NCBI RefSeq assembly: GCF_014646155.1
Contig: NZ_BMMX01000026.1
Coordinates: 1-64,000, forward strand
DNA from: Mangrovihabitans endophyticus
GTDB taxonomy: Bacteria > Actinomycetota > Actinomycetes > Mycobacteriales > Micromonosporaceae
DNA length: 64,000 bases
Direction: 5' to 3'
Of this stretch, positions 2,146 to 45,197 are shown piece after piece. The stretch's first letter is position 1. Every line of letters begins with the position of its first letter. The notes beneath the pieces were generated by a model. That model saw only the letters and a program-made list of their open reading frames with translations. It did not search any database and was not told the origin of the DNA. Position numbers and translations under genes: made by a program.

Positions 2146-3521
<1,376 letters not shown>

Positions 3522-6325: not shown

Positions 6326-6350
6326 ATGAGCCGAGAGGCGTGGCGCGGAA

Positions 6351-8675: not shown

Positions 8676-8686
8676 GGAGTGGATCT

Positions 8687-9692
<1,006 letters not shown>

Positions 9693-9694
<2 letters not shown>

Positions 9695-9735
9695 ACCTTT
9701 GCCAACCCGGCATCGAGCCCGTCGGCCGCACGGAG
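9693..9735 (+). repeat. Partial, decayed copy of the 90-bp MITE-like element
   Basis: From GAACCTTT at 9693 through GGCATCGAGCCCGTCGG to about 9735, this matches the left half of the elements at 24144-24233 and 45020-45107. The right half is missing or unrecognisable. It forms the moxR-DUF58 spacer and supplies the second and third bases of the moxR stop codon. Confidence 0.65.
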
Positions 9736-9746
9736 TGGGCCCCGGC

Positions 9747-11102
9747 GTGAGTGATCAGCCGCAGGCGGGTGCCGTCGCGGAACCGACCGCCGAGGGCTGG
9801 CCCGCCCCGGCGTGGGTGCCGACGCGTGCCCTCGGCCGGACCGTGCTGCTCACCGGTCTGCTGCTGGTCCTCGGAGTGGCCTTCGGCCGGGTGGATCTGG
9901 TGTTGATCGGGGCGCCGTTCGCGATCGGCGCGGCGATCGGTCTGCGCCGGATGCCGGGGTCGGCGCCCGAGGTCACCATCACCGCGGACACCGAGCATCT
10001 GGTCGAGGGCGGGTCGGTGGACGCCTCCTTGGTGGTGGCAAACCCCGATGTGATCGCGTACGACCTGGTGGTGCTGCGCACCCGGACCTCGCCGTGGTTG
10101 CGGCTGGATCATGCCGACCGCCCGTTCGGCATCGTGGTGCCGCGGGACGGCTGGGCCGCGGTGGACCTGTCCGGCGAGGCGTTGCGCTGGGGCCGGCAGG
10201 ACGTCGGTCCGGCGGCCGCCCGCGTGGCCGCGTGTGGCGGGCTGCTCGCGTGCCGGCCGGTGGTCACCCCGCCGCACCGGGTGCGGGTCTACCCGGTGAC
10301 CGATCCGTTCGCCGCCACCGAGGCGATGCCCGCCGCGGCGGGCCTGGTCGGCAACCACCGGTCACGCCGTCACGGCGAGGGCGGCGAACTGGCCGGGGTG
10401 CGTCCGTTCGCGCCCGGCGACCGGTTGCGCCGCATCGACTGGCGGGTCTCCCTGCGTACGCGTGACCTGCACGTCGCGGCCACCCTGTCGGACCGCGACG
10501 CGGAGGTCTTGTTGTTGCTGGATGTGCTCGGCGAAGCCGGCGCGTCCGGCGGTGTCGGCGGCGCCGCCTCGGTGCTGGACACGACGGTGCGGGCCGCCGC
10601 CGCGATCGCCGAGCATTATCTGCAGCGCGGTGACCGGGTGTCGCTGATGGAGTACGGCGCTTCGGCGCGGCGGTTGCGCGCCGCGACCGGCCGCCGGCAA
10701 TACCTCACCGTGCTGGAATGGCTGCTGGACGTGCGCGCGGACAACACCGACCAGGTGCCCGACGAGCACGTCTTCGGGGCGCACCACGTCTCGTCGGACG
10801 CCTTGGTCGTGGTGCTCACCCCGCTTGTCGACCCACGCGCCGCCGACATGCTCGCCTCGCTGACCCAGTCCGGGCGCTACACCGTGGCGGTGGACACGCT
10901 GCCCGCCGGGGTGCAGCCGCCGCAGGGTAATCAGTGGACCCCGGTGGCCACCCGGCTGTGGCGGCTGGAGCGGGAGAACGTCCTCGGCCGTCTGCGGGAA
11001 CACAGCGTGCCGGTGGTGACCTGGGCGGGCGCCGGAAGCCTGGACCTGGTGCTGCGGGACGTGGCCCGGATGGCCTCGGCGCCGCGCGCAGGAGGCCGCT
11101 GA
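9747..11102 (+). CDS. DUF58 domain protein
   Basis: A 451-residue protein. Two hydrophobic helices near residues 30-65 are followed by an extracytoplasmic-type beta-rich region and then the DUF58 core GVRPFAPGDRLRRIDWRVS, a hallmark of the family. A degenerate von Willebrand-type region with LLLLDVLGEAG follows. DUF58 proteins are the usual partners of MoxR ATPases, probably in cell-surface assembly. The GTG at 9747 was chosen over an upstream ATG that would read through the repeat element. Its stop shares one base with the next start. Confidence 0.88.
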   Translation: MSDQPQAGAVAEPTAEGWPAPAWVPTRALGRTVLLTGLLLVLGVAFGRVDLVLIGAPFAIGAAIGLRRMPGSAPEVTITADTEHLVEGGSVDASLVVANPDVIAYDLVVLRTRTSPWLRLDHADRPFGIVVPRDGWAAVDLSGEALRWGRQDVGPAAARVAACGGLLACRPVVTPPHRVRVYPVTDPFAATEAMPAAAGLVGNHRSRRHGEGGELAGVRPFAPGDRLRRIDWRVSLRTRDLHVAATLSDRDAEVLLLLDVLGEAGASGGVGGAASVLDTTVRAAAAIAEHYLQRGDRVSLMEYGASARRLRAATGRRQYLTVLEWLLDVRADNTDQVPDEHVFGAHHVSSDALVVVLTPLVDPRAADMLASLTQSGRYTVAVDTLPAGVQPPQGNQWTPVATRLWRLERENVLGRLREHSVPVVTWAGAGSLDLVLRDVARMASAPRAGGR

Positions 11103-20559: not shown

Positions 20560-21189
20560 GTGGAACTCGTCGCGATCGACCTCGAAGGCAGCGGCGCCCA
20601 GGACCGCGACCACGAAGCCATTCTCGAAATCGCCCTCGTCCCCATCGTCGACTGGCAACCCGACATGACAAGGGCCTACTGCACCCTGATCAACCCCCAA
20701 CGCCCAATCCCGCGCAGACCGTGGATCTCTCCCGGACTCACCGACGACAGTCTCCGGACAGCGCCCACGACCGCGACCGTTGAACCCGAACTCGCCCACC
20801 GGATCAACGGGAAATACCTCGTCGGCCACAACGTCGGCGTCGACTGGCGCCTCCTGCACCGCCGTTGCCCGACCATCACCCCAACCGGCCTCATCGACAC
20901 CCTCCGCCTGGCCCGCACGATCGACCCGAAAGCCCAGCACGGACTTACTGCCCTGCTCGAACGGTACGAACTCACCAGCGAGGTACACCGTCTTGCACCA
21001 GGCGGCAACCCACACCAGGCCCTCTGGGACACCGCCGGTTCCGCCCTGCTCCTCACGACGCTCGCTACACGAGTACTCGGCGAGCAGCCCGAGACCGAAA
21101 CCCTCCTCAAAGCAGCCGGCATCCCCACCGACAGGCCGGCGACACCCCCCACTGCGACGCAGCCGAGCCTCTTCGACGCGACAGGCTGA
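20560..21189 (+). CDS. DEDDh-type 3'-5' exonuclease
   Basis: A 209-residue exonuclease of the DnaQ/RNase T superfamily. Motif ExoI is VAIDLEGSG (Asp7, Glu9), ExoII is LVGHNVGVDWRLLHR, and ExoIII is the HxxxxD pattern in PHQALWDTAGSALLL. All four acidic residues and the general-base His are present. The GTG at 20560 is preferred to an upstream GTG because GGAGG lies 9 bases before it. It follows the radical SAM gene by 72 bp on the same strand and shares its C-rich codon use, so it probably belongs to the same cassette, perhaps processing DNA or RNA carrying a modified base. Confidence 0.82.
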   Translation: MELVAIDLEGSGAQDRDHEAILEIALVPIVDWQPDMTRAYCTLINPQRPIPRRPWISPGLTDDSLRTAPTTATVEPELAHRINGKYLVGHNVGVDWRLLHRRCPTITPTGLIDTLRLARTIDPKAQHGLTALLERYELTSEVHRLAPGGNPHQALWDTAGSALLLTTLATRVLGEQPETETLLKAAGIPTDRPATPPTATQPSLFDATG

Positions 21190-21487
21190 GTGGTAACCAG
21201 AGCCGTTCGGCGATCTCTCTGGCCGCCTCGTGGTCAGGCCCGTACAGCAGCTCCAAGTTTTCGTATAGCGAGATCAGCTCGGCCTCCGCTTGCTCACGAT
21301 TACCTTCGGCGAGTAGCAGCATCGCGATGTTGCGTCGCAGGTCCACTGCTTCCTCGGAGACATCTCCTTCGCGGGCGCGGACATGGGTGAGGACCTGCCG
21401 GAACTGCTGGGTGGCGAGGGTGGTCTCGCCGAGGTCGGCCCGGTATCCCGCAGGGACAGCAGCGTCTGATGCCGCTGGAGGAGGCAT
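21190..21487 (-). pseudogene. Fragment of a TPR-repeat protein
   Basis: The minus-strand frame gives two TPR-like helices: LGETTLATQQFRQVLTHVRA and NREQAEAELISLYENLELLY followed by GPDHEAAREIAERL. This is typical of the C-terminal repeats of actinobacterial TPR/NB-ARC regulators. The N-terminus is missing: the frame runs into unrelated sequence at about 21450, and the other end runs antisense into the exonuclease gene. It looks like a decayed remnant. Confidence 0.45.
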
Positions 21488-21653
21488 CAGCCTGACCGGC
21501 GCTAGCTATGTGCGCAGCCCGGCCGAGACGTTGCGCAACTACGGCTGGCTGACGGTGCTCGGCGACGACATGGCCGAACGGATCGGCGGCGGCGACCGGC
21601 TCCGGGCTTCGGGCGCGTTCGTCGAGGTGGAGCGGTTGGCGGCGGACGGATGA
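21488..21653 (+). pseudogene. C-terminal gene fragment of unknown origin
   Basis: The plus strand reads SLTGASYVRSPAETLRNYGW then LTVLGDDMAERIGGGDRLRA, ending at TGA 21651-21653. Codon bias and amino-acid content look like real protein, but there is no start or upstream domain. I do not recognise the parent family. It abuts two other remnants, marking this as a junkyard of insertions and deletions. Confidence 0.35.
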
Positions 21654-21654
21654 G

Positions 21655-21835
21655 CGGGCCAGGTCCGCGATCCGGGTGCCCGCCAGCCCTTCACCGTACG
21701 GGCTGGCGGTGTTGCTGAGCTTGTCGCGAACCGCCGGGGTGGTCATGGAGGCGACCGCATGACCGGGATGCCGAGGTGAATAGGCGGCCCGAGCGCCGGC
21801 GTTGGTGGAGTTGGTGTCACTCCGCACGACCACGC
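21655..21835 (-). pseudogene. Internally deleted wecB (UDP-GlcNAc 2-epimerase) fragment
   Basis: The minus strand joins two separated parts of wecB. One matches the C-terminus (NTASPYGEGLAGTRIADLAR; the intact gene at 30486 has NTASPYGDGLAGTRIAALAR). The other matches the mid-gene segment around DTNSTNAGARAA (intact: DTNSTNAGAQAA). About 620 bp between them in the intact gene are missing. It is therefore a deleted paralogue lying about 9 kb from the working copy. Confidence 0.7.
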
Positions 21836-22206
21836 ACCCCGTGCCGGAACAGATCGTCACGGTCCTCGACGAGAACGACGAGAACGCCGTCATTGGCTGG
21901 CGTCCCGAGCCGGAGGTCGATACGCAGGGTCGGCAGCGTGCCGTGGGCATCTTGCGGACCCTCCGACAGAGGCGGTACCGGGATGACGGATCCTGTCGGC
22001 GATTTGTAGCCCGACTACCGGGTGGGCCGAGCGTGACCCGCGTGAGGTTTCCGGCTGGCTTGGCGGCGTCAGCTCCGGCGCGCTGAAGGTCGGTAGGTCG
22101 CCATCCCAACTCCGCGACATGGGGTATTGTCTGTATTACTACTTACAGGAGCTTACACATAGTAAGACCTTTTTATAACTTGTGCACCTTTCGCCGGGAG
22201 GTCGCC
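21836..22206. other. Non-coding / remnant stretch with an AT-rich segment
   Basis: No complete gene is seen. The part up to about 22085 keeps an open plus-strand frame with VPEQIVTVLDENDENAV, possibly another fragment. From about 22120 to 22190 the DNA is strikingly AT-rich for this genome (TATTGTCTGTATTACTACTT and CTTTTTATAACTTG), with CTTACA repeated and an inverted GTAAG. This is probably the promoter region of the first Kai-locus operon. Confidence 0.4.
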
Positions 22207-22518
22207 GTGACCGTGCGTCTGGAGCCGAGTGGCGGTCGGCCGAATCGGCTCGCCCGGCGGGTGCGGGCGCCCTGGCCTCGTGCTCGGCTGGTTCGGTCCG
22301 GGTCGACCCGCCGCCCCGGTGCTTCCGCGGTGGTCCTGACGACGTGGGGTGTGCGGGTGCAGGAGGTGCTGCCGTCGGTCTCGGTGTGGGTTGCCGGGAC
22401 CGCGGCAGATGCTCGCGGTGTACGCGCGGGTATTGGTGGCGCGGCCGCGATGAGCGTGGCGGTCGAGTTGTCCTCGCCCGCGATCCGCAATTTCCCCCAT
22501 GGGTTTTGGGAGCGATGA
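22207..22518 (+). CDS. Hypothetical protein upstream of the Rcp-like regulator
   Basis: A possible 103-residue protein. GTG 22207 has a good ribosome site (GGGAGG, 6 bases away), third positions are GC-rich, and its TGA overlaps the next start (ATGA-like, 22516-22520), all of which argue for a real gene. The sequence is basic at the start and hydrophobic in the middle (SAVVLTTWGVRVQEVLPSVS). It has no motif I recognise, and composition alone can open frames here, so confidence is limited. Confidence 0.35.
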   Translation: MTVRLEPSGGRPNRLARRVRAPWPRARLVRSGSTRRPGASAVVLTTWGVRVQEVLPSVSVWVAGTAADARGVRAGIGGAAAMSVAVELSSPAIRNFPHGFWER

Positions 22519-22964
22519 TGCGCGTTCTGCTGGTCGAGGACAATCCCGGTGATGTGGATCTTGTCGCCGAAGGCTTGGAAGAAAGTCCACTTCCTGTCGA
22601 GCTCGCCGTCGCGCGCGATGGCGTTGAAGCTCTCTCCTGGCTTGGTCTGCGTCGAGGAGCTGAACCTCCGGAGATACCTAGTCTGATAATTCTCGATCTC
22701 AATCTCCCTCGCCGAAACGGATGGCAAGTTCTGGAGGAAATCCGGCGGGACTCAGAATTTTTTCGCGTTCCGGTCGTGGTGTTGACGTCGTCGGATGCTG
22801 CCGAGGATATCGATGCTTGTTATGACCGGGGAGCGAATTGTTATCTGACTAAGCCGATTGATTTGAAGATGTATATGTCGGTGGTGCGGCATATCGAGGC
22901 GTTCTGGCTTCACCTGGTGGCGTTGCCGGGGGTCGGCGGTGGTCGGCCGAGGAGAGAGGGATAG
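22518..22964 (+). CDS. Rcp1-like single-domain response regulator
   Basis: A 148-residue stand-alone receiver. It has the acidic pair in [13 protein letters not shown], the phospho-acceptor Asp in LIILDLNLPRRNGWQVL, Thr in VVVLTSSDA and Lys in CYLTKPIDL. The inserted loop before the Asp strand and LNLPR.NG.QVL are typical of Rcp1-type regulators that partner cyanobacterial-type phytochrome or PAS histidine kinases. ATG 22518 is preferred (GGGAG five bases upstream); an ATG at 22515 is adjacent. Its last 192 bp belong to the 1.37-kb duplicated segment. A gap of only 3 nt separates it from the next gene. Confidence 0.88.
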   Translation: MRVLLVEDNPGDVDLVAEGLEESPLPVELAVARDGVEALSWLGLRRGAEPPEIPSLIILDLNLPRRNGWQVLEEIRRDSEFFRVPVVVLTSSDAAEDIDACYDRGANCYLTKPIDLKMYMSVVRHIEAFWLHLVALPGVGGGRPRREG

Positions 22965-22967
22965 CCC

Positions 22968-23804
22968 ATGGCAGAGGACGGAGGTACTCGTGTCCTGCTG
23001 CTGGTGGAGGACAATCGCGCCGACGCGGAGCTGGTCAAGGAGTATCTGGCTCAGTCCGATGATGATGATTCTGGTATCCGGGTGATTCACGTGTCGCGTC
23101 GGGACGATGCTGCGGCGGTTCTGCAGCGGGAACGGGTCGATGTCATCCTGTTGGATCTGACGTTGCCGGATGCGCGGGGTCTGCGGACTTTGGAATCGAT
23201 TCGGGATACGGCCGGTGATGTGCCTATCGTCGTGTTGACCGGGGCGGAGGAAGACGGTCTGGCGGCGTCGTGTCTGGACGCGGGTGCGCAGGATTATCTG
23301 CTGAAGTTCGAGATTCGTCCGGTGGCGTTGCGGCGTGCCGTCGGTTATGCGATCTACCGCAAGACCGGTGAGGACCGGCGTAGCCTGGCGCAGGTTTTCG
23401 CGCAGTACCGGGAAATGAGTTCCCAGAACAGTACCACCATGGTTACTGCGTCCATGGCGGGTACTGGCGCGCTGCGGATGCGGTATCCGGACGGCTTCGA
23501 TGAGATCGTCGGAATCTACCAAGAGTTAGTGGTCACGTACGTGGATTGTCTTTTTGTCAAACAAGCGAAACCGCGCGTTCAGATGGAGGAGATCGTCACC
23601 CTGATCGGTGATCGCAGTGGCGGGCCGCGTGACCTGCTCGACGTGCATGTTGCGGCATTGGACCGGGTGACCGCGGCGCACGAGGGTGAACGCGCGCGGG
23701 CCATTGCGGTCGAGGGCCGCCTGATGGCATTGGAGATGATGGGAATGCTGGTCGAGTTCTACCGAGTGGGTCAGCGACGTCATATGGCGTGGAGTACGGC
23801 GTGA
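22968..23804 (+). CDS. Receiver protein with KaiA/RsbU-like C-terminal helical domain (copy A)
   Basis: A 278-residue protein. Residues 7-130 are a receiver with intact phospho-relay residues (Glu14/Asp15, Asp63 in ILLDLTLPD, Thr91, Lys113). After a linker, residues about 175-270 are helical, with [11 protein letters not shown] and [17 protein letters not shown] resembling the RsbU N-terminal/KaiA C-terminal four-helix domain. KaiA of cyanobacteria (about 284 residues) likewise joins a receiver-like domain to such a bundle. Lying directly before kaiB and kaiC, it is a candidate KaiA functional equivalent; that is inference. Codon 187 is TTA (23526-23528). Its stop overlaps the kaiB start. It is identical to copy B. 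Confidence 0.8.
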
Positions 23805-24109
23805 CCTATCAGCTTCGCCTCTACGTCACCGGGCGTACGCCGTCATCGATCCGGGCGATCGACAACCTGCGGGATATCTGCGCCAAGGAACTGTACGGCG
23901 ACATCGAGGTCGACGTGATCGACGTCCTGGAGAATCCGGCCCTTGCCGACGATGAACGCATCCTTGCCACCCCGACGTTGATCAAGCGGCTACCCGAACC
24001 GGTGCGCCGCATCGTGGGTGATCTCAGCGACCGCGAACGCGTCCTCATCGGACTCGACATCGCCGGGGAACCGCTCGTAACGCTCAAAACCCAAGGGAAC
24101 TCGTCATGA
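23801..24109 (+). CDS. kaiB: KaiB-family circadian clock protein (copy A)
   Basis: A 102-residue KaiB, the same length as cyanobacterial KaiB. It shows the thioredoxin-like start [20 protein letters not shown] and the family block [20 protein letters not shown] followed by [13 protein letters not shown]. In cyanobacteria KaiB changes fold to bind phosphorylated KaiC. GTG 23801 is chosen: GGAG lies 6 bases upstream and the codon overlaps the preceding stop (GTGA); a GTG at 23789 would add four residues. It is identical in sequence to the second copy at 27892. The downstream kaiC of this copy is destroyed. Confidence 0.92.
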
Positions 24110-24285
24110 CAGCGCTAATACCAGTCACCAAGATGCAACTACTGAACCTTTTCCAACCTGGCATCGAGCCCGTCGGTTGTGCGCCGTCGACCAGCGGCGG
24201 CATCGGCCGGCCTCGCCAGGTGGAAAAAGGTTCACTGGAAACCGGCATCGCCGGCCTCGAAGACGACTCCGCGGCACCGGTGTGA
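24106..24285 (+). pseudogene. kaiC stump carrying an in-frame 90-bp element
   Basis: ATG 24106 and the next 13 codons ([13 protein letters not shown]) equal the start of the intact kaiC at 28197. A 90-bp element plus 3-bp duplication (93 bp) then interrupts it in frame. After it, [16 protein letters not shown] resembles the KaiC N-terminus for a few residues ([10 protein letters not shown] in the intact gene) before TGA at 24283-24285. All P-loops are lost. The stop overlaps the GTG of the hybrid kinase, so the stump may survive as a translational coupler. It probably arose by deletion of most of a kaiC. Confidence 0.75.
24144..24233 (+). mobile_element. 90-bp MITE-like palindromic element in the kaiC stump
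   Basis: It begins GAACCTTTT (24144) and ends AAAAGGTTC (24225-24233), perfect 9-bp terminal inverted repeats. It is flanked by ACT on both sides (24141-24143 and 24234-24236), while the unoccupied site in the second copy reads CAACTACTGGAAACC with a single ACT. It therefore inserted with a 3-bp target duplication. It has no coding capacity for a transposase and is presumably mobilised in trans. It is about 90% identical to the reverse complement of 45020-45107. Confidence 0.85.
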
Positions 24286-26144
24286 CGGCCACGGCGAAGG
24301 GGCCGCCGGAAGCGGCCCTGCTGCGTGTGCTCTTGGTCGAGGACAACCCGGGCGACGCCGAGCTCGCTCGTGAACAACTGACCGGGCTGCCCGGTGTGCG
24401 CTTCGAGGTGAGGGAAGCCGATCGATTGTCCGAGGCGTGGGACAGCATCGCTCGCGAAGCCGTCGATGCGGTCGTCCTGGATTTGAATCTGCCCGACTCG
24501 TGGGGAATCGACACCTTGCGCAGGCTCCGGGAACGCCATCGCGGACTCCCCATCACCGTGGTGGCCGGCAGCCTTCCGGACGATTTCCGGAGCCTGCTCG
24601 TCAGCGAGGGAGCCTCGGACGTCATCGACAAGGACGACTCCCGGCCATGTGTGCTGGCACGCAGCGTGATGTATGCCGTGTCCCGCCAGGAAGCGACCTT
24701 ACAGGCGCAGAGCGTTTCCGCGCTCGTGCGCGCGGACCCGGACGCCATCATCGTGTATGACGACGATGGCGTGGTCCGTTTCGTCAACGATGCGGCGACA
24801 CGGATCTTCGGACGACCCGCGGAACGCTTCGTCGGTGCGGAGTTCGGCTTCTCCTTCGCCAGTGGAGGAACGACCGAAATCGACATCATGGCGGGATCCA
24901 TGCACCGCGTCGGAGAGATGCGGACGGTCCGGGTGGAGTGGATGGGCTGCCAGATGTGGTTGGCGGCCATCCGCGACGTCACCGAGCAGCGCATGGTTCT
25001 GCGACAATTGCACGAGGCCCAGAAGCTTGATGCGCTCGGCAGGCTCGCCGGCGGTGTCGCGCACGACTTCAACAACATGCTGGCGATCGTGCTCAGCGCC
25101 GCGGACGTCCTGGAGGACATGGTCGCTGGCAACCAGCAGGCGATCAAGCTGATCGGCCAGGTGCAGCGGGCGAGCACTCGTGCCTCGGCGATAGCCAACC
25201 AGTTGCTGGCGTTCGGCCGCGATTCGTCGACAAACCCCGAGCCCCTGGACCTGAACAATTTGGTCCAGGGATGCGTGGACATGCTGTGCCGCCTCCTCGG
25301 AAAGAATATCGACGTGGTGGCGCAGCTCGATCCGAACATCGGCACCATCTGCGCCGATGCCACCCAGCTCGAACAGATCCTGATGAATCTGGTCATCAAC
25401 GCCCGCGATGCCATGCCCGAAGGTGGTCGAATCCGGATCACCACGGCCGCCGTCGTCCTCGGCCCGGACGACCCCTTTAGGTCGCCCGATCTGCAGCCGG
25501 GTGAATATACCCGCGTCTCGGTCGAGGACAACGGGACGGGGATGCCCGAGGAAATCCGCAGCAAGATTTTTGAGCCGTTCTTCACTACCAAAGAGCCCGG
25601 CAAGGGAACCGGTCTCGGGCTTGCCACAACCTTCGGAATTGTGGCGCAGGCGGGCGGCTCCATCGCGGTCGACAGCCGAGCCGGTGTCGGTACGACCTTC
25701 ACGGTCCACCTGCCTGTGGTTCGGCCGTCGCCACCCGTCCATTCCCAGGTGGATGGCGAGACCGCTCCGCTTCCCAGGAGCGGCAGTGTCCTCGTGGTGG
25801 ATGATGAGGCGGACCTGCGCGACGTCGTCGCCGACATGCTCGGGGCCGCCGGCTACGACGTCGGTGTGGCGTGCTCGGGCGCCGAGGCGGTCGCGTTGGC
25901 CGAGACGCGCCGATTCGAGATGCTCCTGACCGACATCAACATGCCGAAGATGAATGGCTTCGAGTGTGCTGATCTCATACGGGAGATCCATCCCCGCATC
26001 GCAGTCGTGTTCATGACGGCCAATCCCGTCGAGGCGGACGACCGCGTCGGGGCCAATGCCGAAGCCGCAATCCTTCCGAAGCCCTTCCAACAGAGGGCGC
26101 TCTTGGGTCGCGTTCGGCAATCATGGCCCCAGCCGGAGCGATGA
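24282..26144 (+). CDS. Hybrid histidine kinase (receiver-PAS-kinase-receiver)
   Basis: A 620-residue cytoplasmic signalling protein. The N-terminal receiver is about 14-130 ([13 protein letters not shown]; Asp67 in [12 protein letters not shown]). A PAS domain follows at about 145-235 ([13 protein letters not shown]). The phospho-acceptor His261 is in [16 protein letters not shown]. The HATPase has an N-box [15 protein letters not shown]1 VEDNGTGMP and G2 [13 protein letters not shown]. The C-terminal receiver is about 502-618 (Asp551 in [13 protein letters not shown]). The GTG at 24282 overlaps the kaiC-stump stop, implying coupling to the Kai operon, so it may be its output or input kinase. 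Codon 140 is TTA (24699-24701). Confidence 0.9.
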
Positions 26145-26863
26145 TCACGGCACCGTTGTGCCGTTCACGCGTCCAGGCCGGCTTCGGTGAGGGCTTCGTG
26201 TATGCGGCCGGGGCAGAACACCATCGATGAGGTGCCACCGTCTCCCGCATGCCCTGTGTCACCGCGGCCGTCGTGCCGAGGGTGGCGTTATAGCAGGTCG
26301 GAGGCCCGAAGTGGCGGCTGTCGGGGGTCTGTCACCCTGCCGGGTGCTGTTCTAGATCGACGCTCGCACTCGTAAGTGTACTTTTCAGCCACGTATGTTG
26401 CAAAAGCCCTCTAAAGGGCGTACTCCTTAAATAGACTAAAACGGACATATAGGCAGGAACAGGATCATGCACTCAGGATCGGGGTCTGGGGCGACCGGGC
26501 GTGTCGCCTCTCCCCGGCTGGCGCGGGTGTGGCGATCGGGACGGTGGTGAGATAGGTGCTGTCGGTAGTCGGGTCACGACACGTGGCTGTCGTGGGTGCA
26601 GAGCACGATTCCCGATTTGCGGTGGCCGCCGGCGGTGAGCCGGTTGTGCGAGTTTTGGGGCCCCGGTTCGGCGCGATGCGTTGCGTCCCCGGCGTCTTGA
26701 GTCCCGGCGGGTTCGAGCCGTTGGCGGACCAGCGCCGGCGATGACCGTCGCGACAACCTGACTGTCTGCTCAACGGGCGAACGTGTCTCCGTCCTCCGAG
26801 GGCGGCTCTCGCGGCGCCGGTTTGTCGTCGGTATCCGATGTGTCGCGTGCCGATTCTCTTCGC
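26145..26863. other. Spacer between the two Kai copies; remnants and AT-rich promoter-like DNA
   Basis: No intact gene is seen in these 719 bp. A minus-strand tail reading SSMVFCPGRIHEALTEAGLD ends near 26165 and may be a gene fragment. The stretch 26375-26465 is AT-rich (TCCTTAAATAGACTAAAACG) compared with its surroundings and resembles the promoter zone ahead of the first copy. The remainder up to 26863 has no convincing codon pattern. Confidence 0.4.
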
Positions 26864-27055
26864 GTCGTGGTGTTGACGTCGTCGGATGCTGCCGAGGATA
26901 TCGATGCTTGTTATGACCGGGGAGCGAATTGTTATCTGACTAAGCCGATTGATTTGAAGATGTATATGTCGGTGGTGCGGCATATCGAGGCGTTCTGGCT
27001 TCACCTGGTGGCGTTGCCGGGGGTCGGCGGTGGTCGGCCGAGGAGAGAGGGATAG
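26864..27055 (+). pseudogene. Truncated copy of the Rcp-like response regulator
   Basis: The last 64 codons of the Rcp-like regulator (VVVLTSSDAAEDIDACYD onward) are duplicated without the first half, so the phospho-acceptor Asp and the acidic pair are missing. A plus-strand frame stays open back to GTG 26783 (MSPSSEGGSRGAG), which could give an 90-residue fusion, but it cannot be a working receiver. The duplication breakpoint is at 26864. Confidence 0.75.
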
Positions 27056-27058
27056 CCC

Positions 27059-27895
27059 ATGGCAGAGGACGGAGGTACTCGTGTCCTGCTGCTGGTGGAG
27101 GACAATCGCGCCGACGCGGAGCTGGTCAAGGAGTATCTGGCTCAGTCCGATGATGATGATTCTGGTATCCGGGTGATTCACGTGTCGCGTCGGGACGATG
27201 CTGCGGCGGTTCTGCAGCGGGAACGGGTCGATGTCATCCTGTTGGATCTGACGTTGCCGGATGCGCGGGGTCTGCGGACTTTGGAATCGATTCGGGATAC
27301 GGCCGGTGATGTGCCTATCGTCGTGTTGACCGGGGCGGAGGAAGACGGTCTGGCGGCGTCGTGTCTGGACGCGGGTGCGCAGGATTATCTGCTGAAGTTC
27401 GAGATTCGTCCGGTGGCGTTGCGGCGTGCCGTCGGTTATGCGATCTACCGCAAGACCGGTGAGGACCGGCGTAGCCTGGCGCAGGTTTTCGCGCAGTACC
27501 GGGAAATGAGTTCCCAGAACAGTACCACCATGGTTACTGCGTCCATGGCGGGTACTGGCGCGCTGCGGATGCGGTATCCGGACGGCTTCGATGAGATCGT
27601 CGGAATCTACCAAGAGTTAGTGGTCACGTACGTGGATTGTCTTTTTGTCAAACAAGCGAAACCGCGCGTTCAGATGGAGGAGATCGTCACCCTGATCGGT
27701 GATCGCAGTGGCGGGCCGCGTGACCTGCTCGACGTGCATGTTGCGGCATTGGACCGGGTGACCGCGGCGCACGAGGGTGAACGCGCGCGGGCCATTGCGG
27801 TCGAGGGCCGCCTGATGGCATTGGAGATGATGGGAATGCTGGTCGAGTTCTACCGAGTGGGTCAGCGACGTCATATGGCGTGGAGTACGGCGTGA
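27059..27895 (+). CDS. Receiver protein with KaiA/RsbU-like C-terminal domain (copy B)
   Basis: Identical to the protein at 22968-23804: receiver with Asp63 and Lys113 intact, then the helical C-terminal domain, 278 residues, TTA codon at 187 (27617-27619). In this copy the order is receiver-KaiA-like, kaiB, kaiC with 4-nt overlaps throughout, the same order as cyanobacterial kaiABC. The preceding regulator is truncated, so transcription must come from the spacer or from read-through of the hybrid kinase gene. Confidence 0.8.
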
Positions 27896-28200
27896 CCTAT
27901 CAGCTTCGCCTCTACGTCACCGGGCGTACGCCGTCATCGATCCGGGCGATCGACAACCTGCGGGATATCTGCGCCAAGGAACTGTACGGCGACATCGAGG
28001 TCGACGTGATCGACGTCCTGGAGAATCCGGCCCTTGCCGACGATGAACGCATCCTTGCCACCCCGACGTTGATCAAGCGGCTACCCGAACCGGTGCGCCG
28101 CATCGTGGGTGATCTCAGCGACCGCGAACGCGTCCTCATCGGACTCGACATCGCCGGGGAACCGCTCGTAACGCTCAAAACCCAAGGGAACTCGTCATGA
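27892..28200 (+). CDS. kaiB: KaiB-family circadian clock protein (copy B)
   Basis: Same 102-residue sequence as copy A, with the YVTGRTPSS start and the [16 protein letters not shown] block. GTG 27892 overlaps the upstream stop, and its own stop overlaps the ATG of the intact kaiC. This is the only KaiB in the window that is directly coupled to a complete KaiC, so it is the likely partner in complex formation. An unregulated second copy would double KaiB dosage relative to KaiC. Confidence 0.93.
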
Positions 28201-29744
28201 CAGCGCTAATACCAGTCACCAAGATGCAACTACTGGAAACCGGCATCGACGGCCTCGACCAAATCGCTGAGGGTGGGCTTCCTGCCGGACGCAGCACCGT
28301 CATCGCGGGCACCGCGGGAAGCGGGAAGACCGTCCTCGCCCTGCAGTTCCTGGTCGACGGCATCCGGCGTTACGGTGAGTCGGGAGTGTTCTGCACTTTC
28401 GAAGAGGATCCGGCCGACCTGGTGGCCAACGTGTCTTCGTTCGGCTGGAATCTCAACCAGATGATCGAGGACAACAAGATCGCCGTGGTCGACGCCACGC
28501 AGCATGTCAGCGATAACGTCATCGAGGTCGGACACTTCGACCTTTCCGCCTTGCTGGCCAGGATCGAGAATGCCGTACGACGGGTCGGCGCGAAGCGCGT
28601 CATTCTTGATGCGATCGGCGCATTGTTCCCACAATTCTCCGATGCGAACATGGTGCGGCGTGAGCTGCGTAGGGTGCAATCCGGCTTGCGCTTGCTGGGC
28701 GTCACGACCGTCGTGACGATGGAACGCACCGATGAAGAAGGCGGCGTGGGGCGCTTCGGCGTCGAGGAGTTCGTCGCGGACAACGTCATCGTGCTGCGGA
28801 ACCGGCTTGAGGTGGAGAAGAGGCGCCGTACGATCGAGATTCTCAAATTCCGGGGTGCCAGCCACCAGAAGGGTGAATACCCCTTCACCATCGATCTGCG
28901 CAACGGCATCACCATCATTCCTCTGTCGGCCATCGAACTCGTGCAGAAGTCGTCCGAAGTACGAGTTTCCTCCGGTGTTCCGGAACTGGACAAGATGTGC
29001 GGCGGCGGCATGTACCGCGACTCCATCATCCTGATCAGCGGTGCCACCGGAACCGGCAAAACCCTCATGGTCACCGAATACGTCAAAGCCGCGATAAATG
29101 CCGGTGAAAGGGCGATTCTGTTCGGTGCGGAGGAGAGTGCGGAGCAGTTGCGTCGCAACGCCGCCTCATGGGGTGTGGACTTCGCCGACGCCGAGCGGCG
29201 CGGTCTGCTGCGGATCATCTGCCGGTACCCCGAGATCATGGGCCTGGAGGATCACACGATCCAGATGAAGCGGGACATGGAGGAGTTCAAGCCCGCCCGC
29301 ATCGCGGTGGACAGCATGTCGGCCTTCGAACGTGTCTCCACCCCGAAGTCGTTCCGTGAGTTCGTGATCGGGATGACCAGTTACATCAAGCACCAGGAGA
29401 TCACCGGGCTCTTCACCAACACGACGTCCATGCTCCCCGGTGGGGAGTCGGTCACCGAGACACACATCTCCACCATCACCGACACGATCATCCTGCTGCG
29501 TTACGTCGAGCTCAGCGGCGAAATGCGGCGCGGTCTGACGGTGCTCAAGATGCGCGGCACCTGGCACGAGAAGAACATCCGCGAGTACGCCATGGACCGC
29601 GGGGGCATTCAGATCGGACAGCCCTTCACCGGTGTGCACGGCATCCTCACCGGCTCGCCCTCGTACGGCTACGCCGATGAGCGGCAGCGCTTGGCCACCA
29701 TGTTCCCGACAAGCGTGGCGGACCAGTCAACGCTCCCGGCATGA
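28197..29744 (+). CDS. kaiC: KaiC, dual-RecA-domain circadian clock ATPase/autokinase
   Basis: A 515-residue KaiC with both halves intact. Domain CI has Walker A GTAGSGKT (38-45), the catalytic Glu pair 69-70 (FCTFEED) and Walker B RVILDAI. Domain CII has GATGTGKT (282-289) and Glu312-Glu313 (GAEESAEQ). The C-terminal segment [16 protein letters not shown] places Thr420, Ser425 and Thr426 at the positions of T426, S431 and T432 of Synechococcus KaiC, the autophosphorylation sites. It is therefore probably an autokinase, not only a KaiC-like ATPase. The ATG overlaps the kaiB stop. No canonical kaiA is seen. Confidence 0.95.
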
Positions 29745-29890
29745 GCGCCGGCGGCTGCGCACGCCCGGGAACATGTCGGGTCGCCGGCATGGTGAGCAGA
29801 TAGGACAGAGAAGCAGCGGAGGCTGTCGACCGCGCGCTCGGTTCACGGTTGGCCGAGCGTGCGGTCCACGGCACCGGCGAGCTTCACCAC

Positions 29891-30349
29891 CTAATAGCCG
29901 GACGACTGCATCAGCCAGTCGACTCGACGGGTCAATGCGGCAAGGCCGAACGGCTTGGCCATGTAGTCGTCCGCGCCGATCGTGTATCCCAGCTCGACAT
30001 CGCAGGTCCGGCTCCGGCCGCTGAGCATGAGCACCGGGATCTGCGCCGTGCGGGGGTCGTCGCGGAGCTGGAAGCAGACGCTGAGCCCGTCGGCGGCAGG
30101 CATGACGACGTCGAGAACGATGAGTCCGGGAGGCTCCCGGTGCACGATTTGCAAGGCGGTCACGCCATCCGCCGCACTCAGCACGCGGTAGCCGGATGCT
30201 TCGAGTCCGAACTTCATCAGGTCGCGGAGATCATCGTCGTCGTCGGCGATGAGCACGGCGGGTCGAGATGTGTTGCGCAGCCGTGTGTCCATGGGCGGGC
30301 CAGGCTCGGTAGAAGTGTTTTCGATCCGGTCTGGGGCTCGAACGGCCAT
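29891..30349 (-). CDS. CheY-like response regulator
   Basis: A 152-residue single-domain regulator convergent with kaiC. After about 30 unstructured residues comes a receiver: acidic cluster LIADDDDDLRDLM, phospho-acceptor in LIVLDVVMPAADGL, Ser in VLMLSGRSR, Lys in DDYMAKPFG. The ATG at 30349 is chosen for its ribosome site (GGGAGG, 6 bases upstream). There is no output domain. It may act with one of the kinases in this region; nothing shows which. Confidence 0.88.
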   Translation of the reverse strand: MAVRAPDRIENTSTEPGPPMDTRLRNTSRPAVLIADDDDDLRDLMKFGLEASGYRVLSAADGVTALQIVHREPPGLIVLDVVMPAADGLSVCFQLRDDPRTAQIPVLMLSGRSRTCDVELGYTIGADDYMAKPFGLAALTRRVDWLMQSSGY

Positions 30350-30485
30350 GGTCATCCTCCCGGGGGCTGAGTGCGGGCGCAGTACCGCGAACATCGGCGG
30401 CGGCGCCGCACTGAGAAGACGAGTAAGAGGTGCGGATGTGGTGCAGTCCCGGAGCCCGGACCAACCGGTGCGGGCTTGCGAGACT

Positions 30486-31586
30486 TCAGACGTGGACGGC
30501 TGAACGGGCCAATGCCGCGATGCGGGTGCCGGCCAACCCGTCACCGTACGGGCTGGCGGTATTATTGATCTTGGCGCGTATCGCCGGGGTAGCCATCGCG
30601 GCAGCCGCCCGGACGATGTCGCCCGGTTCGCAGAGCACCGCGAATCCCGCGGCCACCGCTTCGGGGCGCTCCGTGCTCGTGCGCACCACCACGAGCGGGC
30701 GGCGCAACACCGTCACCTCCTCCTGGATCCCACCCGAATCGGAGATGATCACGTCGGCGTGATGGGCCATGCCGAGAAACGAGCGGTAGTCGAGCGGACT
30801 GATCAGGTGGATCGCGGTGCCCGATGATTCGATGCCGGCGGCGCGCAGCGCTTGCGCGGTGCGCGGATGTGCGGGGAACAGGACGGTACGGCCGAGCCGG
30901 TCCAGTTGGTCGATGATCTGAGCGAGCCGGGAGCGGTTGTCGGTGTTCTCCGGGCGGTGGATGGTCGCCAGCACGTACGGCCGATTCCGCGGGCCGCAAG
31001 CGGCGCGCCCGCGACCCGTCGGCAGGAGGTTGCGAACCGCTTCCACGATCGGGTTGCCGGTCAGATGGATCCGGTCCTCGGTGATGCCGCTCCGGAGCAG
31101 ATTGTCGACGTTTGCCGAGGTGGCGGCGCAGTGCACGTCGGCAACCGAGGAGACGAGCATGCGGTTGATCTCCTCGGGCATGGTGCGGTCACCGCTGCGC
31201 AACCCCGCCTCGACGTGCACGACCGGGATGCCGAGGTAGTGGGCGGCCTGGGCACCGGCGTTGGTCGAGTTGGTGTCGCCCTGCACGATGACACAAGCCG
31301 GTCGGTCCACGGCGAACCGCTCGTGCAACTGGCGGAGCATCTCCGCGATCTGCACGCCGCGCGGCTGTCCGCGCAGACCGGTCACCGAAGGTGGAAGATC
31401 GGGCAGCCCGCAGGACAGCAGCACCGCACGGGTCAGTTCGGGGTCGTAGTGCTGTCCGGTGAACACGGGCACTCCGTCCTCGCCGAGCGAGGCCATGACG
31501 GGAGCCAATTTGATGATCTCCGGGCGAGTGCCGAAGACGACGGCGATCTTGCCGTTCAGTGACGGCGGTGCGGGTGTGGCGGTCAC
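30486..31586 (-). CDS. wecB: UDP-N-acetylglucosamine 2-epimerase (non-hydrolysing)
   Basis: A 366-residue epimerase converting UDP-GlcNAc to UDP-ManNAc for surface polysaccharide. It has the N-terminal GTRPEIIKLAPVM, the VQGDTNSTNAGAQAAHYLGI segment, VEAGLRSGDRTMPEEINR (catalytic acidic residues), IHRPENTDN, the ISDSGGIQEE loop and VRTSTERPEAV. The GTG at 31586 overlaps the upstream stop, removing an unrelated extension. It is the last gene of the minus-strand exosortase operon. A deleted paralogue lies at 21655-21835. Confidence 0.93.
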   Translation of the reverse strand: MTATPAPPSLNGKIAVVFGTRPEIIKLAPVMASLGEDGVPVFTGQHYDPELTRAVLLSCGLPDLPPSVTGLRGQPRGVQIAEMLRQLHERFAVDRPACVIVQGDTNSTNAGAQAAHYLGIPVVHVEAGLRSGDRTMPEEINRMLVSSVADVHCAATSANVDNLLRSGITEDRIHLTGNPIVEAVRNLLPTGRGRAACGPRNRPYVLATIHRPENTDNRSRLAQIIDQLDRLGRTVLFPAHPRTAQALRAAGIESSGTAIHLISPLDYRSFLGMAHHADVIISDSGGIQEEVTVLRRPLVVVRTSTERPEAVAAGFAVLCEPGDIVRAAAAMATPAIRAKINNTASPYGDGLAGTRIAALARSAVHV

Positions 31587-32455
31587 CGGGGCCGTCCGCG
31601 GCGACGTAGCCTGCCGACGATCAGGGCCGCGCCGCCCGCGCCGGCCGCGAGCATCGCGAGGATGACCATGCCGGCGGCGGGGGCTGCCGGAGTAGGCACG
31701 ACGACCGCGTTCGGCCCACAACCGGCCGCGCCGACGACGACCGCCACGGTGCTGCTGAGCAAGCTGATCTCCATGGCGCGGGCCCGGATGCTGCCGGCGC
31801 CCGCCGGCACCGTGGTGCTGTGCAGGGCGAGCGTGGCTATGCCGGGGACGGTGAGGCCGCTGTTGGGCCCGGGACTGCTGGCGATGGTCGCGACGGGTAT
31901 GCCGAGGGTGTAGACCTTGCCGTTGATAACCTGCACGGACGTGCTGGTCGTCGGCCCGTCGGAACTTGCGGTACAGGAGGCGACGATCGCATCGGCTTTG
32001 AGCACCGTGGTCGCCGCGAGGGTGATCTGAGCCGGGCTGCCACCGGTGGTCACCGAACAGACGCCGCCGGCGCCGATGGACACCAACCCGGTGGATCCCA
32101 CGATGCCGGCGCAGGCGGCGGAGGTTCCGTCATCCAGGGCTACGGCGTTCTGGACCAGGACGCCCGCAGTGATCGGTGACTCCGCACCGAGCACCGACAG
32201 CAGCGGCTGCTGACCGTCCACCACGGTGCCCTGCGTGCCGTCGTTGCTCGCGGTTGCGCTCCCGCTGTCGACCACCGATCCGCCGGCGAGCGTGACCGTG
32301 GCGGCCGTCGCGGTCGCGGCCGAGGTGTCCGCCCGCGCCGGGCCGGCCAACCCCAGTTGCAGGGCGGTGGAGGCCATACCCGTGACGACGAGATGGACGG
32401 CCAGGTAGGCCGCGAGGCGTCGCCGCCGGGCGGCCGAGGCGATGTCGCCAGCCAT
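31583..32455 (-). CDS. Secreted protein with exosortase-type C-terminal sorting tail
   Basis: A 290-residue exported protein. It has a signal peptide (RRRRLAAYLAVHLV, then a hydrophobic stretch and ARAD), an Ala/Thr/Val-rich beta-type body with two Cys-containing segments, and a tripartite tail: VPTPAAPAAG, a membrane helix (MVILAMLAAGAGGAALIVG) and RLRRRGRPR. The tail fits exosortase/sortase-like substrates. The body resembles the actinobacterial choice-of-anchor P group that accompanies exosortase P; this assignment is from memory of the family, not from a search. The ATG follows GAGAGGAG. It lies in the same operon as the exosortase-like gene. Confidence 0.75.
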   Translation of the reverse strand: MAGDIASAARRRRLAAYLAVHLVVTGMASTALQLGLAGPARADTSAATATAATVTLAGGSVVDSGSATASNDGTQGTVVDGQQPLLSVLGAESPITAGVLVQNAVALDDGTSAACAGIVGSTGLVSIGAGGVCSVTTGGSPAQITLAATTVLKADAIVASCTASSDGPTTSTSVQVINGKVYTLGIPVATIASSPGPNSGLTVPGIATLALHSTTVPAGAGSIRARAMEISLLSSTVAVVVGAAGCGPNAVVVPTPAAPAAGMVILAMLAAGAGGAALIVGRLRRRGRPR

Positions 32456-35512: not shown

Positions 35513-35582
35513 GCGGATCCGGTCGGTGCCCGGCCCGGCGCGACCGGCTAAGCAGCATGGCCGCCGCGCCGAAGAGCCAGTC

Positions 35583-37850
35583 ATGGGGCACCCGCGCGCT
35601 CGTCCTCGTTGGCTCACCTGGCATGTCATCGCCGCGATCACCGTCACCCTTGCCTGCGGGGCCGGCACCGCGCTGTTGAGCCGGGAGATGGCTGCTACGC
35701 ACAGCGCCGAGCGGGAGATTGAGGCGCGTCACGGACTGGAGACGGTGACGTACGCGCTCGGTGCCGCGCTGCAGCGCTACGCGGACGTCTCGTCATCCAC
35801 CGCGGTCGCGCTCGGCGGCCAATCCGATCTCAGCGGCGCCGACTTCGCCTCGCTCACCGAGGCAGCCATGGCACTGCCGGCCGCGATGTCCACCGGTCTG
35901 ATCGTTCCGTCGACCGCCACCACGCGCGCGCGGCTGGACCTGACGTGGCTGGACTCGCCGAGCAGCAAGATCGAGCTCAGGCCGGACCGTTCCGTCACCG
36001 ACCACCGCTACCTGATGATGTCCGCCTCCGCCGACCAGGTCCGCGTGCCGTTGGGCATCGATGTCCCGTCCGGCACCGCCGCCGCGACGCTCCGGCAGGA
36101 TGCCCGCCTCTCCGGAATCGCGCGCGCGAGCGGACCGTCGCCACCCGCCGGGGACCCGCGGGTCCCGTCCGGGGCCGACGATCCGCTCATCATGATCGTC
36201 GCCCCGATTTACGGCACCGTCGGCGTCCCCGACGCCGGTCTGTTCCGCGGCTGGCTGGAAACCCTTGTCGACGCCCGGAAACTCGTCCGCGGCGCCGTCG
36301 GCGACGTGAATGTCGACCCGGTGGATGTCACCCTCGGGGCCGGCTCGATGGCCGTCACCGCTTCGCTCGCCGCGCCCGGAGAATCCACCGACGAGCCCGT
36401 CGAGAGTCGTTTCGCGTCCCTCGGTCAGAACTGGACGGTGACTCTCACGAGCGCCACCTCACGGGGCGACATGTCCGGCCGGCTGCTGGCGCCGCTGACC
36501 GCTGCATTCGGCTCGGCGCTCAGCCTGGGCATCGGTCTCTTCATCTTCCACCTCGGCAGAAGCCGCCGCCGCACGCTCACCGAGGTGAACCGGGCGGTGG
36601 CCGAATTGGCCGCCGACGTCGAGCGCGGCAGCCTCGAAGCGGAGCGCCTGCGCGCCCGGAGCCGCGAACTGCAGTCGTCGAACCGCCAGATCGCCACCCG
36701 CCTGGAGCGTCCGCTGAGTGAGGTGAGCGTCGAACTGGCCACGGCTCGGGATTTCTTCGCCACCGGGTTGCTCGACCGGGGCCACGATGTCCTGCAGCAC
36801 GCCCGCCGACGGACCGAGACGATGCACCGGCTGGTGGGCGATCTGCTGATGATGGCCAGCATGGACGACGCGGCGATCCGCTCGGAGACCGTCGACCTGG
36901 CCCGTCTGCTGGAGCGCGTCCTCGACGAGCGGCAACTGAATTGGCCGGGGAGTCTGGGCCAGGTCACTGTCGACCCCATGCCCGAGGTCATCGGCGATCC
37001 CGCCCTGTTGGCGCTGGTCATGGATCGCCTTCTGGAGAACGCATTGACGTATGTCCCACCCGGCGGCATACCGCGGGTAGAGGTGACCGCCGACTTGACC
37101 GGTCCGGGCTGGCGCGGCGAGTACTGGCGGATCGCCGTCCGCGATCAGGGCATCGGTATCGAGGCGGCGGAGCGGCCGTTCGTCTTCGAGGCGTTCCGCC
37201 CGATAGCCACCACCGACGGCCGGCACGCCGGCAACCGGGTCAGTCTGGCCCTGTGCCGCAAGATCATCCGCGCACACGGCGGCGACATCGACGTCGACGA
37301 GAATGCCGGTGGGGGATGCGTCGTGCGTTTCACGCTACCGACGAGAGCCGAGCGCAGGCACCACCGGCGGGTTCCGTTCCGGACGGTCGCGCGGCTGCGA
37401 TTTCCGGACCGGATCGTCGAAGGCCGGACTGTCGACCTCAGTGAAGGCGGTGCCAGGTGCGCGGTGAGCGAGCCCGCGATCCAGCCGGGAAGCCTGGCCG
37501 ACCTGGAACTGGTGATTGACGGGCAGGCGTTCTCCACGACGGCGCGGGTGCTCGTCGCGGGGCGCACAGAGCCTGATGGCAATCTCCGGCTGGAGTTCGT
37601 CGGGCCCGGCCCGGCTCTGACGGCGGCTATCCGCCGGGTCCTCTATGCCGTCGACAACGGCTCTGGCACGGGGCCGAATATCGGCGAGATCACCAGTCTG
37701 ACCACCGCGGAGCTGGCAATGTCGGCGCCCGCGGTGAAAGCCACCGCGTGGGAATCGGAACGAACGACCTCGGCGACACCGGACTCCAAGACAGTCGCGC
37801 ATCGAGGAGCGGGTCTCCATCGACATTCGCGGCGTGCTCGACGACAGTGA
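35583..37850 (+). CDS. Degenerate sensor histidine kinase fused to a C-terminal PilZ domain
   Basis: A 755-residue membrane protein. Helices at about 12-30 and 303-324 bracket an external CHASE-like sensor domain. Then come a coiled coil (about 330-370), a dimerisation region lacking the phospho-acceptor His (ATRLERPLSEV where HELRTPL is expected) and an HATPase domain (N-box LLENALTYVPPGG, G1 RDQGIGIEAAE, weak G2). Residues about 590-680 are a PilZ domain: RRHHRR (RxxxR) and VDLSEGGARC (DxSxxG) are both complete. It probably responds to c-di-GMP. Autophosphorylation is unlikely; it may act as an allosteric partner. Confidence 0.85.
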   Translation: MGHPRARPRWLTWHVIAAITVTLACGAGTALLSREMAATHSAEREIEARHGLETVTYALGAALQRYADVSSSTAVALGGQSDLSGADFASLTEAAMALPAAMSTGLIVPSTATTRARLDLTWLDSPSSKIELRPDRSVTDHRYLMMSASADQVRVPLGIDVPSGTAAATLRQDARLSGIARASGPSPPAGDPRVPSGADDPLIMIVAPIYGTVGVPDAGLFRGWLETLVDARKLVRGAVGDVNVDPVDVTLGAGSMAVTASLAAPGESTDEPVESRFASLGQNWTVTLTSATSRGDMSGRLLAPLTAAFGSALSLGIGLFIFHLGRSRRRTLTEVNRAVAELAADVERGSLEAERLRARSRELQSSNRQIATRLERPLSEVSVELATARDFFATGLLDRGHDVLQHARRRTETMHRLVGDLLMMASMDDAAIRSETVDLARLLERVLDERQLNWPGSLGQVTVDPMPEVIGDPALLALVMDRLLENALTYVPPGGIPRVEVTADLTGPGWRGEYWRIAVRDQGIGIEAAERPFVFEAFRPIATTDGRHAGNRVSLALCRKIIRAHGGDIDVDENAGGGCVVRFTLPTRAERRHHRRVPFRTVARLRFPDRIVEGRTVDLSEGGARCAVSEPAIQPGSLADLELVIDGQAFSTTARVLVAGRTEPDGNLRLEFVGPGPALTAAIRRVLYAVDNGSGTGPNIGEITSLTTAELAMSAPAVKATAWESERTTSATPDSKTVAHRGAGLHRHSRRARRQ

Positions 37851-37885
37851 CGCGCTGCCAACACGCGTGGTTCGAGGACCACGGC

Positions 37886-37960
37886 TTTGCCGATCTATCG
37901 GTATCATATGTACTATTCACAACAAATGTACCATTTTAAGGCATTCTGCAGTGCAGGGGA
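37886..37960 (+). promoter_or_regulatory. AT-rich promoter-like region
   Basis: An unusually AT-rich stretch (TATCGGTATCATATGTACTA, ACAAATGTACCATTTTAAGG) sits before the ribosome site GGGGAG of the next kinase. GTAC and ATGTAC repeat twice. It resembles in composition the AT-rich zones upstream of the Kai copies. It is probably a promoter; exact boxes cannot be assigned. Confidence 0.4.
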
Positions 37961-37965
37961 GTCCG

Positions 37966-45021: not shown

Positions 45022-45107
45022 ACCGTTTCACCGTGGCGAGGCCGGCAAATGCCGCCGCTGGTCGACGGCGCGCAACCGACGGGCTCGATGCCAGGTTGAA
45101 AAGGTTC
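45020..45107 (-). mobile_element. 88-bp MITE-like palindromic element with ATT duplication
   Basis: From GAACCGTTTC (45020) to GAAAAGGTTC (45098-45107), flanked by ATT at 45017-45019 and 45108-45110. Its reverse complement is about 90% identical to the element at 24144-24233. The element end supplies the last two bases of the upstream stop codon. No transposase is encoded. Confidence 0.85.
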
Positions 45108-45197
45108 ATTGACGCCGCCATCGCGCGCACCGGCGCCCGGTCCGCCATCGTGCGGGCCGGGCGCCGTCGTCTTCGCGAGCGCGCATAGGGTCGGCGC

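Follow-up and report, generated by a model that had tools for sequence, protein, structure and literature searches.

A 64,000-nucleotide stretch of the actinobacterium Mangrovihabitans endophyticus (contig NZ_BMMX01000026.1, positions 1 to 64,000; referred to here as the window) carries a group of Kai-type genes, probably a KaiABC phospho-signalling cassette of the KaiA3 type that was acquired horizontally and has two-component partners of its own. All of these genes lie on the forward strand. A full-length rcp-like gene for a single receiver protein of 148 amino acids (aa) (22518-22964; Pfam Response_reg, E 5.4e-19) is followed by a kaiA3-type gene of 278 aa (22968-23804), whose product joins a receiver (Response_reg, E 1.6e-19) to a KaiA-like C-terminal helical domain (the C-domain), and then by kaiB (23801-24109; Pfam KaiB, E 9.5e-27), a broken kaiC (24106-24285) and a hybrid histidine kinase of 620 aa with the Pfam order receiver - PAS - HisKA/HATPase - receiver (24282-26144), the HisKA match of which (22.9 bits) falls under the Pfam cut-off of 26.9. 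Further along are the 3' part of a second rcp (26864-27055), second copies of the kaiA3-type gene (27059-27895) and of kaiB (27892-28200), both identical to the first copies, and an intact kaiC of 515 aa (28197-29744). A first-pass annotation, made from the letters alone, had recognised an rcp-like regulator, a receiver protein, KaiB, KaiC and a hybrid kinase here, and Pfam agrees with these identities, NCBIfam with those of KaiB and KaiC. It had also described 4-nucleotide (nt) overlaps between most of the genes; these are found at the KaiA-like/kaiB (GTGA), kaiB/kaiC (ATGA) and kaiC-remnant/kinase (GTGA) boundaries, but not between rcp and the receiver gene, which are separated by 3 nt.

The receiver protein is very likely homologous to KaiA, on the evidence of profile comparison and a predicted fold. 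The full-protein profile, when compared with Protein Data Bank (PDB) sequences, was swamped by receivers, with no KaiA among the best 60 of 314 matches. A profile built from eight C-domains and searched against PDB sequences to E 10 gave nine matches, of which KaiA took the first (1v2z, E 0.068), second (1q6a, 0.077) and sixth (5jwr, 0.24) places, and these KaiA matches were colinear with the profile over about 98 residues each. An AlphaFold model of the C-domain made from eight sequences (predicted local distance difference score 81.0, predicted template modelling score 0.71) was used for a Foldseek search in which ranks 1-7 were all KaiA (probability 0.98-1.00, E 0.08-0.6) and KaiA occupied 12 of the 16 top rows. 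The candidate KaiA equivalent of the first-pass annotation is most likely a real one, because the C-domain ranks KaiA first by both profile and predicted fold and because the gene adjoins kaiB and kaiC in several phyla. Its architecture is very likely that of KaiA3, with an N-terminal receiver that has a phosphorylatable aspartate, a KaiA-like four-helix C-domain and kaiB directly downstream, usually with kaiC. The receiver residues E14, D15, D63, T91 and K113 are kept in both KaiA-like proteins of this genome. Receiver similarity alone was discarded as evidence for KaiA and was not counted, since 75 of 80 similar loci had no C-domain match.

The intact KaiC is of the KaiABC type. It has two KaiC ATPase stretches (Pfam E 8.9e-116), in keeping with the earlier description of a two-domain protein, scores 634 bits against NCBIfam TIGR02655 (cut-off 546) and is also over the cut-off of PRK09302. 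The closest solved chains are two-domain KaiABC-type KaiC proteins, namely 8zn5 at 675 bits, which we take to be a reconstructed ancestral KaiC, and others at 554-599 bits, while the Rhodobacter KaiC 8dba reached 368 bits. Both Walker-type loops, the glutamate pairs (FEE and EES), presumably with their usual roles in KaiC, and the HISTITD motif are kept. Alignment places a Ser-Thr phosphosite pair at S425/T426 and shows that the long C-terminal extension of the KaiC2 type is absent, features that are consistent with a KaiA-driven phosphorylation. KaiB likewise has the cyanobacterial length that had been noted for it, being 102 aa from the GTG at 23801 (a longer open reading frame, ORF, begins at 23789), as is the solved chain 4kso. 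Copy 2 was over the cut-off of PRK09301 in NCBIfam, and kaiB scored 112 bits against TIGR02654, below the cut-off of 145. The solved chains nearest to it, from 1r5p (1e-30) down to 8fwj (1.1e-25), are KaiB of KaiABC systems and presumably of cyanobacterial origin.

A second Kai operon is present on another contig of the same assembly, here called C11, and the view that the genome holds more than one set is therefore upheld. On C11 an rcp ending at 6105, a KaiA-like gene (6102-6944), kaiB (from 6941), kaiC (ending at 8813) and a hybrid kinase (8810-10702) follow one another, so that the order rcp - KaiA-like - kaiB - kaiC - kinase given in the first-pass annotation is intact there but nowhere intact in the window. 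The window kinase resembles the kinase that lies 3' of kaiC on C11, and the operon-coupled kinase of the first-pass annotation is upheld. C11 also has a kinase-like ORF at 2778-5690. Identity between the two loci is 68% for KaiC and 45-46% for the KaiA-like protein. Compared by codon position (1/2/3), the two loci differ by 0.24/0.15/0.48 in kaiC, 0.42/0.36/0.62 in kaiA, 0.27/0.19/0.65 in kaiB and 0.43/0.32/0.58 in the kinase; changes are 1.7 to 3.4 times as frequent at the third position as at the second, a pattern that suggests constraint at the protein level.

Among 67 genomes of the genus, KaiC of more than 45% identity was found only in M. endophyticus itself (two) and in one other genome (G026, 48%); some KaiC match at 1e-30 was present in 30 of the 67, the remaining matches being at 24-31%. 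In G026 kaiB lies beside kaiC with no KaiA3-type gene nearby (L011 / L148), the KaiA-like profile finds a receiver match only, and KaiC is without the Ser-Thr pair at the phosphosite. A full KaiA3-type protein was found in one of 300 genomes drawn from the family, that one being M. endophyticus (8 candidates scored per genome, misses possible). In the draw from the phylum (6 candidates per genome at the strict threshold of 1e-40, misses again possible) 11 of 396 genomes matched, and the C-domain was covered in M. endophyticus, in G461, which has two separate KaiA3-type A-B-C loci (L146 and L147), and in G627, where a receiver and a KaiA-like C-domain end a long histidine-kinase-like ORF (L145). 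The class draw around Jiella (8 candidates, 1e-45, with the same reservation) gave 3 of 289 genomes, Jiella included, with A-B-C order in G697. In a draw of 244 genomes from the phylum to which a Nostoc belongs, the C-domain profile found 22 with a match (best E 3.9e-40), and in 19 of these the match sat in an ORF of 293-328 aa; a Chloroflexota draw of 251 genomes gave 19 with a match. Up to 16 candidates were scored per genome in these two draws, so that misses are possible. The idea of close relatives on plasmids was rejected: plasmid records gave 279 KaiC matches, all below 60% identity, and no match to the DNA of 22518-24282.

Scattering of the genes without linkage in relatives, which had been named, together with a KaiC that does not bind KaiB, as speaking against such a locus, was not what was seen. 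A-B-C linkage is present in most of the relatives examined, not only in Alphaproteobacteria, Chloroflexota and Cyanobacteria but also in a further genome from the phylum of M. endophyticus, with L145, L172, L233 and L234 as exceptions. Within the 80 loci compared, all five that have a C-domain (L035-L039) show A-B-C order, their carriers being Jiella endophytica, Jiella mangrovi, Acuticoccus yangtzensis and two Chloroflexota assemblies, and the same order is seen in L171 and L173, in nine of eleven selected Chloroflexota stretches (L224-L234) and, as far as kaiB adjoining the KaiA-type gene is concerned, in 15 of 15 cyanobacterial loci examined (L174-L188, from the 22 matches). A hybrid kinase-like gene lies 3' of kaiC in L035 and L037; the ORF lists by length for these two loci and for those of G461 and G627 include antisense ORFs. 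The Acuticoccus genome of L037 has a second A-B-C locus, L173, and in L037 itself the KaiA3-type protein (8429-9241) has a histidine in place of the receiver aspartate, resembling a step towards a pseudo-receiver.

Trees place both loci of M. endophyticus with alphaproteobacterial ones. In a KaiC tree of 46 rows, in which deep forks are open and several long branches are flagged, the window and C11 proteins are sisters (100/98) and are joined by both Jiella rows (98/86) and then by both Acuticoccus rows (98/98). The same six rows group together (99/95) in a 26-row tree of the KaiA C-domain, which omitted canonical KaiA and the Rhodospirillum/Bradyrhizobium KaiA3; the order within the group is open and the 20 other rows fall outside it. 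This grouping with the Jiella and Acuticoccus loci makes a transfer across phyla likely. Most likely the two loci go back to a single source, either common to them and Alphaproteobacteria or acquired from the latter, and either duplicated or arrived as a pair; the direction of the transfer is inferred. This clade's KaiC falls outside a supported 20-row group (97/94) that holds the cyanobacterial KaiA3-linked KaiC (the published alphaproteobacterial KaiC3 was not included), and the window protein is not filed as KaiC3.

The window locus has been rearranged. An exact direct repeat of 1372 bp, its boundaries computed as 22773-24144 and 26864-28235 (1372 of 1372 bases identical, both on the forward strand), contains the 3' part of rcp, the KaiA-like gene, kaiB and the first 39 nt of kaiC. 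The copy 1 side has the full rcp and the hybrid kinase with only a remnant of kaiC; the copy 2 side has the full kaiC with an rcp that lacks its 5' part and no kinase. To the left of copy 2 the sequence has no similarity to the 5' side of copy 1. To the right, copy 2 runs on into intact kaiC and copy 1 into a transposon-like element of 92 nt, of the type known as MITE-like (resembling miniature inverted-repeat transposable elements), at 24143-24234, with a core at 24144-24233 and ACT on both sides. The ends of the element are 20-nt inverted repeats, 90% complementary, and its family is present at 40 or more genomic sites, the window one included, at 86-100% identity and on many contigs; this count is a lower bound, with 40 of 225 candidates scored (41 rows, including one antisense row at one place). 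The same triplet flanks the 90-nt core in eight of the nine full copies read (L166 has one mismatch), and such a repeated triplet is a signature of transposition. Members of the family also occur elsewhere in the window, at 45019-45108 and, in part, at 9692-9725, with GAACC...GGTTC ends and a length of about 90 bp. The broken gene, read by translation and comparison with copy 2, consists of the first 37 nt of kaiC, the element and a short tail: beyond the element kaiC picks up again (25 of 26 bases matching copy 2), and an in-frame stretch then leads to a TGA that overlaps the kinase start. An element lodged in a kaiC start with kaiC bases resuming after it argues that copy 1 once held at least a real beginning of kaiC that was later interrupted and cut down. 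The reading that a whole operon was simply duplicated in tandem was rejected, as the repeat spans 1372 bp only. We infer instead that the locus was partly duplicated and that kaiC copy 1 was lost to the transposon-like insertion and a deletion. The perfect identity of the repeat may come equally from a recent duplication or from gene conversion; the one mismatched base beyond the element is a hint of conversion but may be a deletion scar. The net content is one complete gene set with kaiA and kaiB doubled, so that the complete and duplicated set of the first-pass annotation holds for those two genes and fails for kaiC, the kinase and full-length rcp, of which the window has one intact copy each.

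It is possible, if rather doubtful, that the window locus is a decaying duplicate without a role and that the C11 operon, which is complete, works alone. Copy 1 of kaiC is broken, copy 2 of rcp is truncated, and no consensus promoter was found at 26100-27100, where 0.2 would be expected by chance and where promoters of other kinds may serve. Against this, every gene still has one intact copy in the window locus, and its protein differences from C11 suggest constraint, though these mostly reflect older history. The two-fold repeat also depends on the assembly as it stands, and there might be a single real rcp-A-B-C operon, the remainder belonging to a second molecule or a mixed population or being a loop that was wrongly unrolled. 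An assembly of 220 contigs suggests short reads; from such data it would be unusual to obtain a perfect repeat of 1372 bp within a single contig, and the identity of the copies is exactly 100%. We think this unlikely, since both right-hand junctions are sensible, one being a native element with its repeated end triplet and the other an intact kaiC, and, apart from the kaiC bases that follow the element and short pieces that look like chance, no further similarity was found between the outer sides. Finally, the alphaproteobacterial origin of the nearest Kai relatives found might point to a contig foreign to this organism. This was rejected as highly improbable: the element family in kaiC copy 1 is common to many other contigs of the assembly, and the window flanks carry an actinobacterial small RNA family.

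For the cassette as a whole a KaiA3-type phosphorylation cycle with phosphorelay input from the co-encoded hybrid kinase is proposed, on account of the kept receiver phospho-site and the presence of that kinase. KaiC would assemble into a hexamer and autophosphorylate at S425/T426 in its CII ring; fold-switched KaiB would then bind the CI ring of phosphorylated KaiC and sequester the KaiA-like protein, and phosphorylation would fall again. The KaiA-like protein has a receiver domain with a phospho-aspartate, through which the linked hybrid kinase, and also Rcp, could feed a signal into KaiA activity; alternatively, the receiver domain, kinase and Rcp may serve as a readout of the state of KaiC.

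The nearest described counterpart is the KaiA3-KaiB3-KaiC3 system of Synechocystis sp. PCC 6803 and its relatives. According to PMC11372060, this system has, as here, a gene for a receiver with a KaiA-like C-domain just upstream of kaiB and usually with kaiC next, a phospho-aspartate, Ser and Thr phosphosites in KaiC and two Kai systems per genome; most KaiA3 proteins keep the receiver phospho-site, and a cognate kinase had not been identified. The present system differs in its apparently different phylum and its own six-row clade with Jiella and Acuticoccus, in the addition of Rcp and a downstream hybrid kinase to the operon and in the rearrangement of the window locus. With the KaiABC system of Synechococcus elongatus it shares the A-B-C order, the KaiA C-domain fold, a KaiB of 102 aa, the KaiC domain plan and the phosphosites, but the N-domain keeps the phospho-aspartate, unlike the pseudo-receiver of canonical KaiA (PMC11372060), its KaiC stands apart in the tree from ten cyanobacterial kaiB-linked rows, and a SasA-type kinase was not seen in a PF07689 search of the genome. 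The KaiB-KaiC timers of Rhodobacter/Cereibacter, which are without KaiA, similarly have a kinase adjoining kaiB and kaiC. The Rhodobacter KaiC is described, in PMC10076222, as having an extended coiled-coil tail and functioning without KaiA, whereas the window KaiC has no tail; in the alignment Cereibacter KaiC has both the tail and Ser-Ser, and the window KaiC neither.

Several observations weigh against a KaiA3-type cassette. Pfam KaiA gives no match to the receiver protein. The KaiA E-values are weak (0.07-0.24 by profile, 0.08-0.6 for Foldseek ranks 1-7, none at 0.001), the matched KaiA chains are not mutually independent, and with the same profile the unrelated chains amphiphysin (0.086) and YfiO (0.091) score close to KaiA, over short stretches. 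Four KaiA-type places have no kaiB or kaiC nearby: G627 (none within 11 kb), G891 (neither within 9 kb), L233 and L234. The Acuticoccus relative L037 is without the receiver aspartate. The KaiB family PF07689 matched three kaiB genes of the genome and no fourth, so that no SasA-type output kinase is seen; since KaiC falls outside the 20-row group, KaiC3 biochemistry might not carry over to this clade; and the window locus may be in decay. A serious rival, to which we would give somewhat less than an even chance, is a non-rhythmic phospho-switch in which the Kai proteins regulate in response to ATP or stress and are tied into two-component signalling, with no timer. That no SasA-type kinase was seen, and that kinases and regulators surround the kai genes, fit this. 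The KaiA equivalent, the Ser/Thr phosphosites and the missing KaiC2 tail, in contrast, are features linked to KaiA-driven cycling, and the Synechocystis KaiA3-KaiB3-KaiC3 system is proposed as an oscillator in PMC11372060. At the far end from a switch would be a self-sustained actinobacterial KaiABC oscillator, its KaiA phosphorelay-switched by the co-encoded hybrid kinase, with two such oscillators running in parallel in each cell and the doubled kaiA-kaiB dosage of the window one shifting its KaiA:KaiB:KaiC ratio; this we consider quite improbable.

The surroundings of the locus contain further signalling genes. A receiver-domain protein is encoded on the opposite strand directly after kaiC (29891-30544), and two overlapping kinase genes lie nearby (35526-37850 and 37834-40734; a HATPase with a PilZ domain and a multi-PAS kinase). 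The G+C content of the Kai genes is 0.57-0.65, against 0.694 for the whole window. This low-G+C stretch is flanked on its right by a UDP-GlcNAc 2-epimerase gene (30486-31721) and on its left by a degenerate fragment similar to that gene (21644-21836; DNA pieces at 83-85%, the last 67 aa at 55%). Searches by tblastx with 26145-26863, 21000-22517 and 29745-31800 against C11 (L007), L035, L036 and L037 gave no match above 60 bits. The Rfam Actinobacteria small RNA Ms_IGR-5 is present at 53347-53598 on the reverse strand, adjoining an RNase Z gene.

KaiC homologues have been recorded in Cyanobacteria, Proteobacteria, Archaea and further groups, Chloroflexi among them (PMC5520375), and KaiA has long been held to be cyanobacterial, a statement still made in 2024 (PMC11832031). 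The word 'actinobacteria' does not occur in the main text of PMC11372060, nor do the six group names sought occur in PMC8113500, on kaiA evolution. A literature survey from whose scope supplements and most subscription papers were excluded turned up no account of a KaiA-type protein from Actinobacteria/Actinomycetota, and searches for kaiC with Actinoplanes or kaiABC with Micromonospora returned nothing useful. The occurrence in an actinobacterium of a KaiA3-type KaiABC cassette that brings its own kinase, with its nearest loci in Alphaproteobacteria, points to passage of the KaiA-dependent module as a whole from one phylum to another, and six purified proteins from one genome make testable the question of whether KaiA-driven cycling exists outside phototrophs.

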